Shown: in pieces, positions 12,644 to 30,718 of the stretch
Position numbering within the stretch: position 1 is the first letter of the stretch
How the letters are laid out: each line of letters starts with the position of its first letter
Assembly: GCA_029982795.1 (NCBI GenBank)
Contig: JARRBY010000005.1
Coordinates: 1-37,882, forward strand
Direction of reading: 5' to 3'
DNA from: Patescibacteria group bacterium
GTDB lineage: Bacteria > Patescibacteriota > Patescibacteriia > Patescibacteriales > UBA12465
Length of the DNA stretch: 37,882 nt
The notes under the pieces: generated by a model
What the model saw: the letters and a program-made list of their open reading frames with translations, nothing else
Told to the model about the DNA's origin: nothing
Database searches by the model: none
Position numbers and translations under genes: made by a program

Positions 12644-13057
12644 TTAGCCACTAGTTGTTATTCCTCCTGCCGGAGATGAGCCAAAGGGTAAATTAGCGAA
12701 TACGAAGTAGGTAATGGTGTAGGCAGCTAAAACAATAACTAAACCAATTATGGCACTTGTTATAGTGCCTTGTGCTTTTTTTATCGTCTCTTCGTTACCA
12801 CCTGCTGTCATCCATCTAAAACCAGATACTATGGTTAAACTTAAAAAAATTATTGCCAGAAAACCCAAGATAACTTGAATGCCACGAGCAGCAATTTGTC
12901 CAATTTCAACTTTTCCTAAATTAGCTGCCAAACCAGTTTCTGTAGTCATTTTTTCTAATTCTTGGGGGTTATTTATTAATTGTCCTGAAGCTTGACTGAC
13001 AGCGATAATAGGAAAAATGAGAAGAGAAAAAAGAGCGAGCAAGAAGGATTTCTTCAT
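12644..13057 (-). CDS. T4SS-pilin-like protein 6 of the array (last gene)
   Basis: 137 aa in the VirB2/TrbC-like pilin family common in CPR and mycoplasmas (Mbov_0395 type). It has a cleavable-looking signal (1-24, VSQASG), a mature N-terminal stretch, TM1, the family signature GFRWMTAGGNEETIKKAQG, then TM2. It alone in the array has a polar tail of about 17 residues rich in Gly, Ser and Thr (PFGSSPAGGITTSG), which could be surface-exposed or trimmed. It starts 4 nt after the previous paralogue, has no SD, and is followed by the shared terminator at 12593-12626. Confidence 0.85.
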   Translation of the reverse strand: MKKSFLLALFSLLIFPIIAVSQASGQLINNPQELEKMTTETGLAANLGKVEIGQIAARGIQVILGFLAIIFLSLTIVSGFRWMTAGGNEETIKKAQGTITSAIIGLVIVLAAYTITYFVFANLPFGSSPAGGITTSG

Positions 13058-13061
13058 AGTT

Positions 13062-13511
13062 TTATAAAATTAAATTAACAAATATAAAGTTCCAAATAGT
13101 CCAAGCTGAGAGGGTGAGAATTAAACCAATTACAGCGGAAGTTAAAGATCCAGTTGCTTTTTTTACCGTTTCTGGATTACCACCTGATGTCATCCATCTA
13201 AAACCAGCAATAACTGTTAAAAAAATAAAGATAAGACCGGTAAGACTAAGTAAAGCATTAATAACAAGGCCAACTATTCTTGGAATAGAGGTAGTATTTT
13301 CATCAGTTGAATAGCCACTTTTTTTAGCAATATTTTCCATGCGATTAAGAAGATGATTGCTATTACTTGATTGTATTTCTCCACTTTCTTCAAAATTTAA
13401 ATCTTGAAATTCTACATTTTGTTCTACTTGAGCATAGCTGGCGTTGGTTAAAGGTAAAATTAAAAAAGCACTGAAAACAATAAGAAGATAGAATTTAAAT
13501 TTATTTTTCAT
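13062..13511 (-). CDS. T4SS-pilin-like protein 5 of the array
   Basis: 149 aa, the longest array member because of an extended polar segment (about 28-75, acidic, with SNSNHLLNRMENIAKK) between the signal peptide (1-27) and TM1. The signature reads GFRWMTSGGNPETVKKATG and is followed by TM2 ending NLIL, with no tail. It starts 4 nt after the stop of the upstream paralogue and lies 4 nt before the next, so it must be translated from a common mRNA. There is no SD. Confidence 0.85.
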   Translation of the reverse strand: MKNKFKFYLLIVFSAFLILPLTNASYAQVEQNVEFQDLNFEESGEIQSSNSNHLLNRMENIAKKSGYSTDENTTSIPRIVGLVINALLSLTGLIFIFLTVIAGFRWMTSGGNPETVKKATGSLTSAVIGLILTLSAWTIWNFIFVNLIL

Positions 13512-13515
13512 ATTT

Positions 13516-13920
13516 TTAATTAGCTATTACACTAGCTAGTATTCTTGAAATCCAAGAACTAAGAGCGTAGGCAGTTAACACTATAACAAGACCAATACTT
13601 AAGGATAAAATTTTCTTTTGCGCTTCTTCAATCTTTTCTTTATTACCTTGGGCCGTCATCCAATTATTACCCGCTAAAAACATTAATACTAAGAAAATTG
13701 TACCTAAGGCTGTCATCACCATTCTAATAATTGAGCTTATTATATCATCTAAACTGTTGGTAGTATTAATATCAGTTTGGTCAACAATTTTATTTATATT
13801 TTCATCGTATTCATTTCTTTTTTCAGTATTTAAAAAATCTGCTCTTGTGGGATTGGCAAAAACAAAGGTTATGATAAAAAATAATAGAATCAGCCCTTTT
13901 TTTGTAATTACCTTTGTCAT
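13516..13920 (-). CDS. T4SS-pilin-like protein 4 of the array
   Basis: 134 aa. The signal peptide ends near ANPTRA (residue 28). An acidic, Asn/Asp-rich segment follows, then TM1, the signature GNNWMTAQGNKEKIEEAQK and TM2. The motif position before Trp is Asn-Asn rather than the Gly-hydrophobic pair of its sisters, and the helix after the motif is more acidic. It starts 3 nt after protein 3 and has no SD. Confidence 0.85.
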   Translation of the reverse strand: MTKVITKKGLILLFFIITFVFANPTRADFLNTEKRNEYDENINKIVDQTDINTTNSLDDIISSIIRMVMTALGTIFLVLMFLAGNNWMTAQGNKEKIEEAQKKILSLSIGLVIVLTAYALSSWISRILASVIAN

Positions 13921-13923
13921 ATT

Positions 13924-14325
13924 TTAAATAAAGTAAGAAATAAGAAAATAAGAAATGGCGTAGGCGGCAATAGTAATAACTAGACCAATAATAGCATTAA
14001 TAAGGCCTTCTTGGGCTTTTTTTATCGTTTCTTCATTACCATTTGACGTCATCCATTTAACACCACTGAAAATAATTAAGCCAAAAAATATTACCCCAAC
14101 TAAACCTAAGATAGCGTAAATAATGGTGCCAATAATACTATCCACGGTTTCCGCGTTTTCACCGGTGGCAAATCCGGCTTCTTCACTGGTTATATTAAGT
14201 CCGCTATCATTGTTAAAATTAAAGCTTTGGGCGGCAACGATACTTAAAGGCGCTAGAGTTAAAACAAAAAAAATAAAAGAAAAAGTTAAAGCTATAAGTT
14301 CTTTTTTTCTAATAAATTTAGACAT
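13924..14325 (-). CDS. T4SS-pilin-like protein 3 of the array
   Basis: 133 aa. Signal peptide to about residue 33 (SIVAAQS), polar segment with ITSEEAGFATGENAE, TM1 (IIGTIIYAILGLVGVIFFGLII), signature GVKWMTSNGNEETIKKAQE, TM2 (AIIGLVITIAAYAISYFLI). It follows protein 2 with a 1-nt gap, the tightest junction in the array, implying stop-start coupling. No SD. Confidence 0.85.
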   Translation of the reverse strand: MSKFIRKKELIALTFSFIFFVLTLAPLSIVAAQSFNFNNDSGLNITSEEAGFATGENAETVDSIIGTIIYAILGLVGVIFFGLIIFSGVKWMTSNGNEETIKKAQEGLINAIIGLVITIAAYAISYFLISYFI

Positions 14326-14326
14326 A

Positions 14327-14731
14327 CTAATTTAGTATTTCGTTACCGATAAATGAGGTAATAGCATAGGCAGAAAAGACAATGATTAGGCCAATAATAC
14401 CATTCATTAACAAATTCTTAGCTTTAGCTACTTGGGTTTCATTTCCTTGAGCTGTCATCCATAAAATACCAGCATAAATCATCAGAACCAAAAATAAGAC
14501 ACCAACAAAAGATAGAACTGTACCAATTATTTGACCAGCTTTAGTTTGTAAAAAGTTATCGTAGTTTGCGTTTGCACCAGTTTGTGTCTTAAAAGCCTTT
14601 ACTGCGCCGGCAGTTTCATCCAAGCCTTCTAAAGGATTATATTCTTGAGCTTGTAAGCTATTAACGAAAAAAGCACCATTTAGAAGAAATATGCTTAGAA
14701 TAACTAGAAATATAGTTTTTTTTATTTTCAT
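14327..14731 (-). CDS. T4SS-pilin-like protein 2 of the array
   Basis: 134 aa. Signal peptide ending NSLQAQ (about residue 29), polar segment (30-65), TM1, signature GILWMTAQGNETQVAKAKN, TM2. It is separated from the first array gene by 144 bp that hold two overlapping hairpins, so its expression can be uncoupled from that gene. No SD precedes the ATG. Confidence 0.85.
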   Translation of the reverse strand: MKIKKTIFLVILSIFLLNGAFFVNSLQAQEYNPLEGLDETAGAVKAFKTQTGANANYDNFLQTKAGQIIGTVLSFVGVLFLVLMIYAGILWMTAQGNETQVAKAKNLLMNGIIGLIIVFSAYAITSFIGNEILN

Positions 14732-14743
14732 AAAAATAATTTA

Positions 14744-14805
14744 CACTGGTCTGGAAACAAAAAATTGCGTCCAAACCAGTGATTCCCAATTTTACTGAGA
14801 ATCAC
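14744..14805 (-). promoter_or_regulatory. Two overlapping hairpins between pilin genes 1 and 2
   Basis: CACTGGT-C-TGGA (14744-14755) pairs with TCCA-A-ACCAGTG (14770-14781). GTGATTC (14779-14785) pairs with GAATCAC (14799-14805). The stems share GTG (14779-14781), so they compete. On the minus strand they lie just after pilin gene 1, and an AT-rich tail follows the distal stem. They could protect the 3' end of the first gene's mRNA or act as a leaky terminator that lowers expression of the five genes behind it. Confidence 0.7.
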
Positions 14806-14875
14806 ATATTATTATTTATAATATATAAATAATTTTCAGTAGTAATCTTTTCTCGTTATATTAAAGAAATAAGCA

Positions 14876-15262
14876 TTAGACACCACTGGTAGCATTATAA
14901 ATAGCATTAATAACGAAGGTGGAAATTGCCCAAGCTGCTAAAATAATAACTAAACCAATAACTCCGGCTCCTAATATTTGCTGAGCTTTAGATACTTTTT
15001 CTTCGCTACCACCTGCTGTCATCCATTGAAAACCTCCCATTAAGATGATACCCACAGCAATTACTCCTAAAAAGCCAAGAACAACGTTGATGATGCTACC
15101 AACAATTTCTCTCGGATCACGGTTTGATAAAGCATTGTCTAAACCATTATTAACTTGATTTAAACCAAAATCAGCTTGTGCTGATACCTGTACAGCAAAT
15201 ACAGGGGTTAATAATAAAGCAACGATAGCAATAGACAATAAGTGTTTGTAAATTTTTTTCAT
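14876..15262 (-). CDS. T4SS-pilin-like protein 1 of the array, probable major subunit
   Basis: 128 aa. Signal peptide to about residue 30 (VQVSAQA), short mature N-terminus, TM1 (about 53-75), signature GFQWMTAGGSEEKVSKAQQ (77-95), TM2 (about 99-120) and a short tail. The architecture is that of VirB2/TraA pilins. It is the only pilin gene here with a real SD (AAAGGAGGTGA, 15277-15267, 7 nt spacing) and has its own extended -10 promoter, and the hairpins behind it would favour its mRNA. I infer it is the abundant subunit. No T4SS ATPase or channel gene is in the window. Confidence 0.88.
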   Translation of the reverse strand: MKKIYKHLLSIAIVALLLTPVFAVQVSAQADFGLNQVNNGLDNALSNRDPREIVGSIINVVLGFLGVIAVGIILMGGFQWMTAGGSEEKVSKAQQILGAGVIGLVIILAAWAISTFVINAIYNATSGV

Positions 15263-26063: not shown

Positions 26064-26092
26064 TTGACAAAATTAGTATTATGATGTATAAA
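26064..26092 (+). promoter_or_regulatory. Promoter of the GreA-like gene
   Basis: TTGACA (26064-26069), 17-bp spacer, TATAAA (26087-26092). Expected start about 26099; leader about 35 nt, no SD. Confidence 0.75.
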
Positions 26093-26133: not shown

Positions 26134-26562
26134 ATGGAGAAAATCTCTAGAGGTTTAAAGAACTACTTGGATAAAGAATTATCTCAATTATTAACCCAAT
26201 ATGAGAAAAGACGCTTAGCTCTAGCAAAAGAAGCGGAGGCTGGCTTTGACATCTCATTTTCATTAGAAGAAGAAGTTTGGGAAAGAAAAATCAAATTTTT
26301 AAAAAATCTAATGAAAAACAAGGAAATTATTTCCTTTCAAAAGAAGGGCGAAGAAATTGTTTTGGGAAGTTATGTCACTATTAATTTTCAAGGATTTAAA
26401 AAAAGCTTTATTCTTGATGGTGTTGGTTATAAAAAAGATGACATTATAATAATAAGTAGTAAAAGTCCAATAGGTTCTATCTTGTTAGGAAAAAAAAGGG
26501 GAGAAACTATTCTTTTTCAGGGAAAAACCATAAAAATAGAAACGGTTTCATTTGCCTGGTAG
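26134..26562 (+). CDS. GreA/GreB-like transcription factor
   Basis: 142 aa. The C-terminal half is a GreA/GreB FKBP-like domain: IVLGSYVTINFQG, then SSKSPIGSILLGKKRGETILFQ (about 109-130), the family's most conserved segment (SPlG.aLlGk..Gd). The N-terminal half (1-65) is helical and charged like the Gre coiled coil, but it is shorter than in E. coli GreA (158 aa) and I do not see the tip DE/DEE pattern clearly. It would bind the RNA polymerase secondary channel; whether it stimulates RNA cleavage or acts like Rnk is open. It has its own strong promoter and terminator. Confidence 0.8.
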   Translation: MEKISRGLKNYLDKELSQLLTQYEKRRLALAKEAEAGFDISFSLEEEVWERKIKFLKNLMKNKEIISFQKKGEEIVLGSYVTINFQGFKKSFILDGVGYKKDDIIIISSKSPIGSILLGKKRGETILFQGKTIKIETVSFAW

Positions 26563-26645: not shown

Positions 26646-27533
26646 ATGTCTTTTGAGAAAAATTTTGTTAATTTGAAGAATAATGATAAAACGTTTCTTT
26701 CTTCTGACGAAGAAGAAGAAAGTCAAGTTGATGCAAAGCTTAAGAAGAAGGGGGTAAATAGAAAATTTTTATATAGTCCTGATCAATTGCGTTCATTTAA
26801 GCTTAGTAAAAATCGTGAAAAAAGAGCGATTTATGAAGCGGTTGAGAAAAAAGTGCAAGAGCTTACAAAAGACGCTAAGTTAGATGTTTTTAATACTATA
26901 ATAGAGCTAAGAGAAAAAGGAGAAAAAGATTGGGAGAGTAAGCTATGGGATGAAAATATTAATAAGTTAATAAAAAAATATGGTTATTCAGATGAAACCT
27001 TATTGATTGATTTAGATGAAGAAACTTTAGGTAAATTATTACAACCTTTACGGAAAGAATTAAGAGAAAATACTTATGTGGCAAGGGATAAAATACCTTT
27101 AAATAGATTTACAAAAGAAGGTTTAGGTAGGGCTAAAGATGACGTTTTAGTTTTTCATGTTAGTCCGGAGAAAATTGAAGGTGGACTAAAACCGGCAAAA
27201 GGAGAGGAATATATCTATTTTAGTAGTGATTTGAAGCGCTTATTTAATTTAAATACAGCAAAATATATTTATGCTTTACGGGTTAATAAAAGCCAATTGC
27301 CGAGTACTTTATATTGTGCAGCTGATTGTTTTCATCGGGTAAGATTTACCGATGTTCAAGATTTTGTAATTGAAGATAGTATTAAAATTTTTTCTGAAGA
27401 AGATCCAGGTTATCGAAATGCTGTTTTAAATCGTCTGGGAGCTGACTTTAACACACTTTATACTACTGCGACCGGTCGGGGGGAGTCTTTTATAAAACAG
27501 AAAAATCAAGAGGAAGATAATTTAAAATTATAA
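26646..27533 (+). CDS. Unknown protein with a possible ADP-ribosyltransferase-like C-terminal domain
   Basis: 295 aa, no signal or membrane segment. The N-terminal 150 residues are charged and helical with an acidic patch (SSDEEEESQ, 19-27) and are not recognised. The C-terminal part reads VLVFHVSPEKIEGGLKP (about 167-183), EEYIYFSSDLKRLF (187-200), KYIYALRV (206-213) and FVIEDSIKIF (240-249). This order of a His strand, a Y-x-Y-F strand and a later acidic strand recalls the H-Y-[E/D] clade of ADP-ribosyltransferase folds such as Arr and Tpt1. That is a pattern resemblance only, with His171, Tyr189 or Tyr191 and Glu243 as candidate residues. Single gene with its own promoter, convergent with the gene at 27576. 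Confidence 0.55.
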   Translation: MSFEKNFVNLKNNDKTFLSSDEEEESQVDAKLKKKGVNRKFLYSPDQLRSFKLSKNREKRAIYEAVEKKVQELTKDAKLDVFNTIIELREKGEKDWESKLWDENINKLIKKYGYSDETLLIDLDEETLGKLLQPLRKELRENTYVARDKIPLNRFTKEGLGRAKDDVLVFHVSPEKIEGGLKPAKGEEYIYFSSDLKRLFNLNTAKYIYALRVNKSQLPSTLYCAADCFHRVRFTDVQDFVIEDSIKIFSEEDPGYRNAVLNRLGADFNTLYTTATGRGESFIKQKNQEEDNLKL

Positions 27534-27536
27534 AAA

Positions 27537-27567
27537 AAGACTCAAAATCATAATAGATTTGAGTCTT
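27537..27567. terminator. Bidirectional terminator
   Basis: AAGACTCAAA (27537-27546) pairs with TTTGAGTCTT (27558-27567). The minus-strand side runs into seven T, fitting the end of the gene at 27576-27899; it also closes the plus-strand ART-like gene. Confidence 0.82.
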
Positions 27568-27575
27568 AAAAGAAT

Positions 27576-27899
27576 TCATTTTTTCATTTTTGTAATTAAG
27601 GCTAAGTTTATAAAACCCGCCTCTTTTTCTTTTTTTAGCACATCACGATAGATAATGAAATCTCGAATTCCATTTCTTTGGTTGTAGGCATCATGAATGG
27701 CATTAAATAATTTTTCTCCTTTGTCGAAATTAGGACCAATAATGAAGAGTCTGCTTATTTCATGCAAGATAATGGCATGATTAAATCCTTCTCTTCCTTT
27801 TAAATTAGTCATTTTTTCTTCATAAGCAATTTTATCAAAAGAATCAATAAACTCAATTATTAGAGTTTGGACGATTTTTGCATTTTCTCCAAATATCAT
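27576..27899 (-). CDS. Small unknown protein with very strong expression signals
   Basis: 107 aa, predicted soluble and mainly helical, no cysteines, no signal peptide. I do not recognise a family or motif. Segments such as FNHAIILHEISRLFIIG and GEKLFNAIHDAYNQRNGIRDF look like amphipathic helices. What stands out is control: a TTGACA-17-TATAAA promoter with extended -10 (27978-27950), a leader of about 44 nt and an SD AAGGAGGT (27910-27903) ahead of the ATG at 27899. Only pilin gene 1 has a comparable SD. A transposase remnant lies just upstream of the promoter. Confidence 0.72.
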   Translation of the reverse strand: MIFGENAKIVQTLIIEFIDSFDKIAYEEKMTNLKGREGFNHAIILHEISRLFIIGPNFDKGEKLFNAIHDAYNQRNGIRDFIIYRDVLKKEKEAGFINLALITKMKK

Positions 27900-27902
27900 G
27901 TA

Positions 27903-27910
27903 ACCTCCTT
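27903..27910 (-). promoter_or_regulatory. Ribosome binding site of the small unknown gene
   Basis: Minus strand AAGGAGGT (27910-27903), three nt before the ATG at 27899. It is a consensus SD in a window where most starts have none, and it decides this start. Confidence 0.88.
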
Positions 27911-27949
27911 TTTTATTTTATGAAAGAACTTTAAGTTATTAGTTAGTTA

Positions 27950-27978
27950 TTTATACCATTTAATTAAAAAAGTGTCAA
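27950..27978 (-). promoter_or_regulatory. Consensus promoter of the small unknown gene
   Basis: Minus strand TTGACA (27978-27973), 17-bp spacer ending in TGG, TATAAA (27955-27950). Perfect -35, spacer and extended -10. It begins 20 nt beyond the stop of the transposase remnant, so it may derive from the end of the insertion sequence. Confidence 0.8.
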
Positions 27979-27998: not shown

Positions 27999-28061
27999 TC
28001 AAGAAGTAAGTGCAACACCTGTCATTTCATAGAATACCTCATAAGGGGTCTTCCAGCCAAG
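27999..28061 (-). pseudogene. 3' remnant of an IS30-like transposase gene
   Basis: Read on the minus strand, 20 codons give LGWKTPYEVFYEMTGVALTS then TGA. LGWKTPYEVF close to the stop is the hallmark C-terminus of IS30-family DDE transposases. The codon before Leu is TAA and no longer frame continues upstream, so only the last bases of the gene survive. The rest of the element is not visible. Confidence 0.75.
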
Positions 28062-28162: not shown

Positions 28163-29263
28163 CTATTTATTATGAGAATTTATAAATTTATTTAAATTGT
28201 CATTTGAGGAATTAACAATACGTTCTGGTTCAATATTATTTTTTTGAAGAAGATCGATGAGTTGTAATAATCTTTGTGTTCCTTTTCGACGAGCGGGGTT
28301 TTTAATATCAGGCGGGTTATTGGTATAATTTTTGTTATCGTAATTGTCTAATTGTCCCAAGTTATGGAAATCATAAGTAATGGAGAATAATAATTCTGGG
28401 TAAGAGCTCGCTTTTTTTAAAAGTGTTTGATAAAATTCTTTGTCGGGATTGAATGAAGACAAGTTAAGCTCAAAGCATTTTTTATTTTTAGCCATAGCGT
28501 CTAACACCTCATTCCAAGTCTGCCAATAATCTTTTTTTAAATTATCAAATAAAATTTTATATTTTTCAACACTATTATTAGTTAAATCTTTTTTGCCAAT
28601 AATTTGTTTTATACTATCCCAATCGCCATTTTTTTCTAAATAATTAAGGTTGGCGCTTATCTCTTCATCTTGGGTATAATATTTTTTAAAATAATTCCAA
28701 TCATTTTCATAAAATTCAATATAACGATAAGGGTGACCAATGATATCCACATCTTTATTATTAATAGCAGCGAGTAAAGACTCTTTTATTTTACGGGGGT
28801 CTAATTTATCTGCTATTTTATGTCTGGAAGCAACCACTAAATCAAGCTGTGCTAAAATTTCATTAGGTACATCTATTATTGCTTCGCCGTTATCAAAGAA
28901 TATATTAGCTTCAACTGCAGAATAAGCTTTTGTTTTGTATTTTTGAGAATTATTTAAATTGTCCACCTTCTCTTTTTGTTTTAGAAGTGACTGACAAATT
29001 GGATGATTTATTTCTAATTTTTTTGGTGCGCCTGGGTTAGAAGAGTGTTCGGAAAAAAAGATGAAATCTAGACCTAATTTATCGGCATATTGCATTAAAC
29101 GAGTATCGCTGTGGACCATTTCTTCTTTGGCGCCATCAATTTCTAAACGGTTGCCATTTAAACTATGAGAGTGAAAATCACCCTTGTAGTATTTTCTAAT
29201 CTTTTCTAACCAATCTTCTTGTTTTTTTGGCTTTTCCGCTTTAAAAATTTTATCAAAATTCAT
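28163..29263 (-). CDS. PHP-domain metal-dependent phosphoesterase-like protein
   Basis: 366 aa, cytoplasmic. PHP signature elements appear in order: DFHSHS (29-34) with the H-x-H pair, FFSEHSS (about 69-75), AVEANIF with the conserved Glu (about 115-121), VASRHK and IIGHPYR. These are metal ligands of the PHP barrel shared by PolX C-terminal domains, histidinol phosphatase and related esterases. There is no polymerase or helix-hairpin-helix region, so it is a stand-alone PHP protein. The C-terminal 150 residues are charged and not recognised. The substrate is unknown. Divergent from tsaE; ends near an inverted repeat and an IS remnant. Confidence 0.85.
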   Translation of the reverse strand: MNFDKIFKAEKPKKQEDWLEKIRKYYKGDFHSHSLNGNRLEIDGAKEEMVHSDTRLMQYADKLGLDFIFFSEHSSNPGAPKKLEINHPICQSLLKQKEKVDNLNNSQKYKTKAYSAVEANIFFDNGEAIIDVPNEILAQLDLVVASRHKIADKLDPRKIKESLLAAINNKDVDIIGHPYRYIEFYENDWNYFKKYYTQDEEISANLNYLEKNGDWDSIKQIIGKKDLTNNSVEKYKILFDNLKKDYWQTWNEVLDAMAKNKKCFELNLSSFNPDKEFYQTLLKKASSYPELLFSITYDFHNLGQLDNYDNKNYTNNPPDIKNPARRKGTQRLLQLIDLLQKNNIEPERIVNSSNDNLNKFINSHNK

Positions 29264-29832: not shown

Positions 29833-30312
29833 TTAAGAGGGGGAATTATTTTTGTATAATTTAACAAGATAAAGAAGAGCCCCAAGGCTAATCATTAAAT
29901 CAGCTAGATTTAGAACTGAGAAATTTTTGATATAAAGATAATCTATTATATATTTAAATTCAAGACGATCAATTAAATTAGAGATTGCTCCGAAGATAAT
30001 TAAAAGTAAAGAGAAAAGATATAAATTATTTAATTTCTCTTTTTTTATTAAAAAAATAAGAAAGGCAATAAGGCCAGTAATGATAATAATAGTTAAGGGC
30101 AGAGTAATATTAATAGGGAGTGGTAAGGAAAAGGCAATATTGCGGTTTGGTGTAAACTGAAAACTAAATAAGTTTTTGATAAGTATTAATTCTTTTTCTT
30201 GAAAACTTATGGCTACTTTTTTTAAATAACGATCAATTATAAAAAATATAGCTATTATAAAAATAATAGCTATATTATTGAGTTTAAATTTTTTTTTCTT
30301 GGTTTTATTCAT
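29833..30312 (-). CDS. lspA: Lipoprotein signal peptidase (signal peptidase II)
   Basis: 159 aa with four membrane helices. Family blocks: TPNRNIAFS (54-62, the N-x-x-x-A-F box), FGAISNLIDRLEFKYIIDYL (107-126) and FSVLNLADLMISLGA (131-145). Asp124 and Asp138 match the catalytic aspartate dyad. It cleaves the signal peptide after Lgt has lipidated the lipobox Cys. Its 5' end overlaps the DksA/TraR-like gene by 8 nt, so the two are co-translated. Confidence 0.93.
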   Translation of the reverse strand: MNKTKKKKFKLNNIAIIFIIAIFFIIDRYLKKVAISFQEKELILIKNLFSFQFTPNRNIAFSLPLPINITLPLTIIIITGLIAFLIFLIKKEKLNNLYLFSLLLIIFGAISNLIDRLEFKYIIDYLYIKNFSVLNLADLMISLGALLYLVKLYKNNSPS

Positions 30313-30718
30313 TTTCCTGAAGTTCTGTTTTACAGGAAATACAAGCGCCAGCGGTAGGTCTGGCCATTAAACGTTTTTCACCGATTGGTTTGTGACAATA
30401 TTTACAAATACCATAGGTATTATTTTCGATTCTTTTTAAGGCGCTTTCAATATCACTTAAATTTTTTTCTAAAACTTTTTGAGTGGCAAGCGTTGTTGAA
30501 AAATCATTTATTTCTTGGGCATTTTCATCTGGTTTATCACCATATTCAGGAAATTGCACCCCTCTCTTGTCGGCTTCATGACTATCTTTTTTTGACATCT
30601 TTTCTAAATTTGATAGAATTTCATTTTTTTGCGCTAAAAGATCATTCTTGATTTTTTCAAGTGCTTCTTTGGTTATGATAGTTTCTTTATTTGCAAAAAA
30701 ATTTGCTTCTCTTTCCAT
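30305..30718 (-). CDS. DksA/TraR-type C4 zinc-finger protein
   Basis: 137 aa. The N-terminal coiled coil (about 14-95) contains PEYGDKPDENAQEINDF; a C4 zinc finger follows with Cys105, Cys108, Cys126 and Cys129 (YGICKYCHKPIGEKRL...ACISCK), the DksA/TraR signature. Such proteins enter the RNA polymerase secondary channel and adjust promoter kinetics, often with ppGpp. The acidic tip between the coiled-coil helices cannot be aligned with confidence to the DxxDxA of DksA. It leads an operon with lspA and has a 5'-terminal hairpin. Confidence 0.88.
   Translation of the reverse strand: MEREANFFANKETIITKEALEKIKNDLLAQKNEILSNLEKMSKKDSHEADKRGVQFPEYGDKPDENAQEINDFSTTLATQKVLEKNLSDIESALKRIENNTYGICKYCHKPIGEKRLMARPTAGACISCKTELQENE

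Follow-up and report, generated by a model that had tools for sequence, protein, structure and literature searches.

A convergent pair of accessory genes restricted to one family of Patescibacteria, possibly encoding a small protein and the enzyme it restrains

A gene for a protein of 107 aa is always found tail-to-tail with a gene for a protein of 295 aa, and because of this arrangement the two products probably constitute one working unit. As a tentative reading, the genes would form a two-gene accessory module in which the 107-aa protein restrains the 295-aa enzyme, its most likely role being that of antidote or immunity partner. The pair lies in a stretch of 37,882 nt (hereafter, the window) that belongs to the genome of an ultra-small bacterium, 669 kb in 35 contigs. 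The original prediction for this locus had picked out the small gene correctly and had overlooked its ever-present convergent partner. In Patescibacteria, many small genes lack an assigned function; here, the strict pairing in two genera makes a testable two-protein hypothesis of what was an isolated orphan.

The small gene occupies positions 27576–27899 on the minus strand, and the predicted open reading frame of 107 aa was found there. Homologs are present in five of 39 genomes of the family, the window's own genome among the five, in agreement with the supposed accessory status; the four others encode proteins with 79, 58, 35, and 32% identity to that of the window, and 25 positions are invariant. 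The reading frame is kept among these relatives, with a dN/dS of about 0.11 against the nearest one (G034); judged by these comparisons, the open reading frame is a real gene whose product is under purifying selection. No recognisable domain had been seen in the protein, and neither Pfam nor NCBIfam contains a match above cut-off. AlphaFold2 predicts a five-helix bundle (pLDDT 86.6, pTM 0.81), for which the PDB and the viral models of BFVD contain no fold match with E below 0.9; the homology and structure searches together returned homologs from this family only and a fold without a known match. One weak likeness concerns the insertion domain of MvcA (PF22193), which resembles residues 43–107 in two of the five members (E 0.0023); at 18.9 bits against a cut-off of 27 it was treated as chance, and probably is a resemblance between helical proteins, the 107-aa protein being different from MvcA in lacking the catalytic domain of the latter. 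Sequence matches to falcipain and CEP57 in the PDB were likewise judged to be chance.

The partner gene lies at 26646–27533 on the plus strand; its product is helical in the N-terminal half and alpha/beta in the C-terminal part, which carries the motif H-S-P ... Y-F-S-x-D. Homologs of it occur in the same five genomes, and the other 34 of the family have none. In all five, which represent two genera, the genes are adjacent and tail-to-tail, and the flanks vary by genus: one side is taken by a GreA-like gene in the first and by gatB in the second. Like the small gene, the partner is under purifying selection (dN/dS 0.16 against G034). If the two distributions were independent, the same five of 39 genomes would be drawn twice with a chance of about 1 in 576,000, a figure which overstates the strength of the association because the five genomes represent only two clades. 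The same circumstance is what would allow the genes to be neighbours by descent, that is, unrelated accessory genes that moved or were inherited as a block and do not function together: with two independent clades the linkage could simply be inherited, and the separate transcription of the genes would suit such a history. However, the flanks are wholly different between the genera and yet both the pair and its orientation have been kept, and neither gene is found alone among the 39 family genomes; we therefore regard this explanation as unlikely.

Between the two stop codons, at 27534–27575, lies a sequence that folds as a hairpin on either strand (RNA fold about −12 kcal/mol, z −4.8 to −5.2), and equivalent intergenic hairpins fold in three relatives (G034, G033, and G017). 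It is probably a bidirectional terminator serving both genes. The GreA-like gene next to the pair (26134–26562, plus strand) encodes a short and divergent protein of 142 aa, whose close homologs (47–83% identity) are confined to those three genomes of the genus that carry the pair; the others, at 25–37%, resemble ordinary GreA. A shared N-terminal motif, M-[NS]-F-[DE], was also considered as a genome-wide signal and gave one match only, with a pattern that omitted the TCN serine codons.

The pair is restricted to one family of Patescibacteria, and no homologs of either protein were found outside it in the searches made. A profile search of the order returned no further homologs of the 107-aa protein, and the profiles of both proteins recovered no additional ones from class samples comprising 381 genomes. 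The profile of the 295-aa protein's C-terminal domain found no further true match in 380 genomes of the phylum; a match in one of them (G744, E 5e-4) is false, the frame encoding an unrelated ATPase-like protein. Across 84,980 species, a pattern scan gave just three relatives of the 295-aa protein, namely those of G034, G033, and G017. Neither protein was found on viral contigs, phages gave no match to the 107-aa protein, and plasmids none to the 295-aa protein; literature searches returned nothing on the pair.

The expression signals that had drawn attention to the small gene are present as described. Its promoter (27950–27978, minus strand) consists of TTGACA at 27978–27973, a spacer of 17 nt, and TATAAA at 27955–27950, with TG at the extended −10 position, and the ribosome site AAGGAGGT lies at 27910–27903 on the same strand, at the short distance of 3 nt 5′ of the ATG. 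All five homologs have TTGACA and a spacer of 17 nt, 70–84 nt upstream of the start, followed by TATAAA (twice), TAATAT, TATAGT, or TAGAAT as the −10 element; in dinucleotide shuffles of the same composition, TTGACA-17 with at least four of six −10 positions arises about 0.006 times per 150-nt upstream stretch. By its sequence, the gene has been shown to own a conserved promoter of the sigma-70 type. The Shine-Dalgarno sequence is shared with the closest relative, G034, only, and is missing from three of the five homologs. High production of the 107-aa protein is a plausible prediction.

Less of the original prediction stood where it called these signals the strongest in the window and the genome otherwise devoid of Shine-Dalgarno sequences. 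Neither motif is unique: TTGACA-17-TATAAA also occurs at 26064 (plus strand) ahead of the GreA-like gene, and AAGGAGGT also precedes a pilin-like gene (14876–15262, minus strand), 6 nt 5′ of its ATG, the sole other occurrence in the window. As TTGACA-17 sites stand ahead of the GreA-like gene as well as of rplS (25323) and tRNA-Asp (30819), this form is apparently the normal type of strong promoter here. Shine-Dalgarno sequences are indeed rare, but not absent; the 3′ end of the 16S rRNA (GGATCACCTCCTT) has an intact anti-Shine-Dalgarno, and AAGGAGG-N3-10-ATG was found 17 times in 669 kb versus 12 times in the reversed control. The promoter statistics cover the window, and those on the Shine-Dalgarno sequence derive from a genome-wide pattern search. 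The pilin-like gene belongs to a group of six tandem paralogs (12644–15262, minus strand; 128–149 aa, 31–43% identity to the first listed member), and its own product has a below-cut-off match to the Mbov_0395 pilin-like conjugal transfer family.

These signals bear on the second idea of the original prediction, by which the small gene, driven by a strong promoter, encodes an abundant protein of accessory or structural kind and the neighbour is incidental. A promoter kept across two genera would fit, as would the fact that the one other gene in the window with AAGGAGGT encodes a pilin-like protein that is likely abundant. On the other hand, three of five homologs have no Shine-Dalgarno sequence, ordinary genes of the window have similar promoters, and the strict pairing would be left unexplained, all of which makes this view improbable.

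A different origin had been proposed for the promoter, that of an outward-directed insertion sequence promoter captured by the 107-aa gene. The remnant that gave rise to this idea is real: at 27999–28061 (minus strand), outside the gene unit, lies the C-terminal tail of an IS30-type transposase, LGWKTPYEVFYEMTGVALTS followed by the stop codon, 20 nt from the −35 element. It equals the C-terminus of IS30 family transposases (copies from Enterococcus) at 11 of 12 residues, E 0.3; unlike a transposase proper it is a fragment of 20 aa, unrelated to the 107-aa gene or to its promoter, and it is present as a single copy in the genome. In the four relatives, the 300 nt preceding the gene show no such remnant, and the upstream neighbours differ: G034 has an SdpI-like gene, G033 a YchF-like GTPase gene, and G017 and G018 each a thymidylate kinase-dUTPase fusion, as we take them to be from their translations. 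Since the TTGACA-17 promoter stands in these four genomes, lacking the remnant and behind other and unrelated genes, it does not depend on the insertion sequence and the capture is refuted; whatever credence the 20-nt proximity might lend it is close to nil. The comparison illustrates how a fragment of an insertion sequence next to a strong promoter can mislead. Further upstream in the window, a PHP-domain-like protein of 366 aa is encoded at 28163–29263 (minus strand; NCBIfam PRK07945, E 2e-14, below cut-off); its gene is absent from this place in the relatives, and the protein has no similarity to the 295-aa protein. At 30305–30718 (minus strand), beside signal peptidase II, lies the gene of a DksA/YteA-like zinc-finger protein.

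What the 295-aa protein might do is suggested by its C-terminal part, which reads VFHVSP...GLKP...YIYFSSDLKRLF...YIYALRV...IEDSIKIF and in our reading recalls the H...Y...[DE] arrangement found in enzymes of the ADP-ribosyltransferase (ART) superfamily. Closest at hand is KptA/Tpt1, the RNA 2′-phosphotransferase, with which it shares the order of motifs, Y-H-x-[TS] ... G-L ... Y-x-x-[LF]-S-x-D, and, in the low-confidence model, the order of strands and helices. It differs in that the second conserved histidine of KptA (YVHLS) is replaced by Y or F (YIYFS), and in being narrowly distributed and accessory. Among the weak matches that Foldseek listed for the AlphaFold2 model (pLDDT 44) are one ADP-ribosyltransferase and three Tpt1 entries, with probabilities of 0.16–0.35 (0.35 to Tpt1). 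Profile alignment with eight KptA proteins (hhalign) brought the same strands together at a score of 16.5, which is not significant, as 28 of 300 column shuffles scored as well or better; neither Pfam (above cut-off) nor the sequences of the PDB contained a match. An ART/Tpt1-like domain is taken as a lead only, because the model is poor, the shuffled controls match the KptA score, and there is no Pfam family.

If the two proteins act jointly, the 107-aa protein would be made constitutively and in excess from its strong promoter and would bind the 295-aa protein as antidote or immunity partner; the 295-aa enzyme, whose C-terminal domain may be ART/Tpt1-like and thus NAD-using, would be held in check, and the intergenic hairpin, as a putative shared terminator, would end both transcripts. 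A small protein in excess fits an antidote, an immunity partner, or an obligate subunit, because of the strong promoter. In favour of the module are the co-occurrence, the constant tail-to-tail adjacency across differing flanks, the promoter in five of five homologs, the dN/dS values of 0.11 and 0.16, and the weak hints of an ART fold; against it count that the ART reading is without statistical support, that the model of the 295-aa protein is poor, that the genes are convergent where an operon would be usual, that PADLOC gave no match, and that the independent clades number only two. The proteins could also function as a pair that is not toxin and antidote, the 295-aa protein being an ordinary or RNA-modifying (Tpt1-like) enzyme and the 107-aa protein its specificity factor, substrate, or chaperone. 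Strict co-occurrence and linkage are compatible with this as well, the genes are transcribed separately, and the purifying selection on the 295-aa protein is that of an ordinary accessory protein; however, the patchy distribution is unlike housekeeping and neither protein is in a known family. We consider such a pair conceivable at somewhat less than even chances, as likely as the antidote reading. The boldest version of the latter, in which a convergent conflict module (toxin and antidote, or immunity) native to this one family would combine an NAD-using effector of ART/Tpt1-like type with a novel helical antidote kept in excess by its dedicated strong promoter, is doubtful; were the pair an ART-type conflict module, its antidote would be of a new type.

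Genes of toxin-antitoxin systems are as a rule organised in an operon, and DarTG, ParTS, and RES-Xre are two-gene modules of this sort whose toxins have the ART fold. The present genes differ from them in being convergent with a hairpin in between; PADLOC, Pfam, and NCBIfam contain no match above cut-off to known families of toxins, antitoxins, or defence proteins. What they have in common with these systems is that the two genes are inherited together, always adjacent in five genomes, that the pair is accessory and patchy, that the small partner has a strong promoter of its own, and, as a weaker likeness, that the C-terminus of the 295-aa protein is possibly ART-like.
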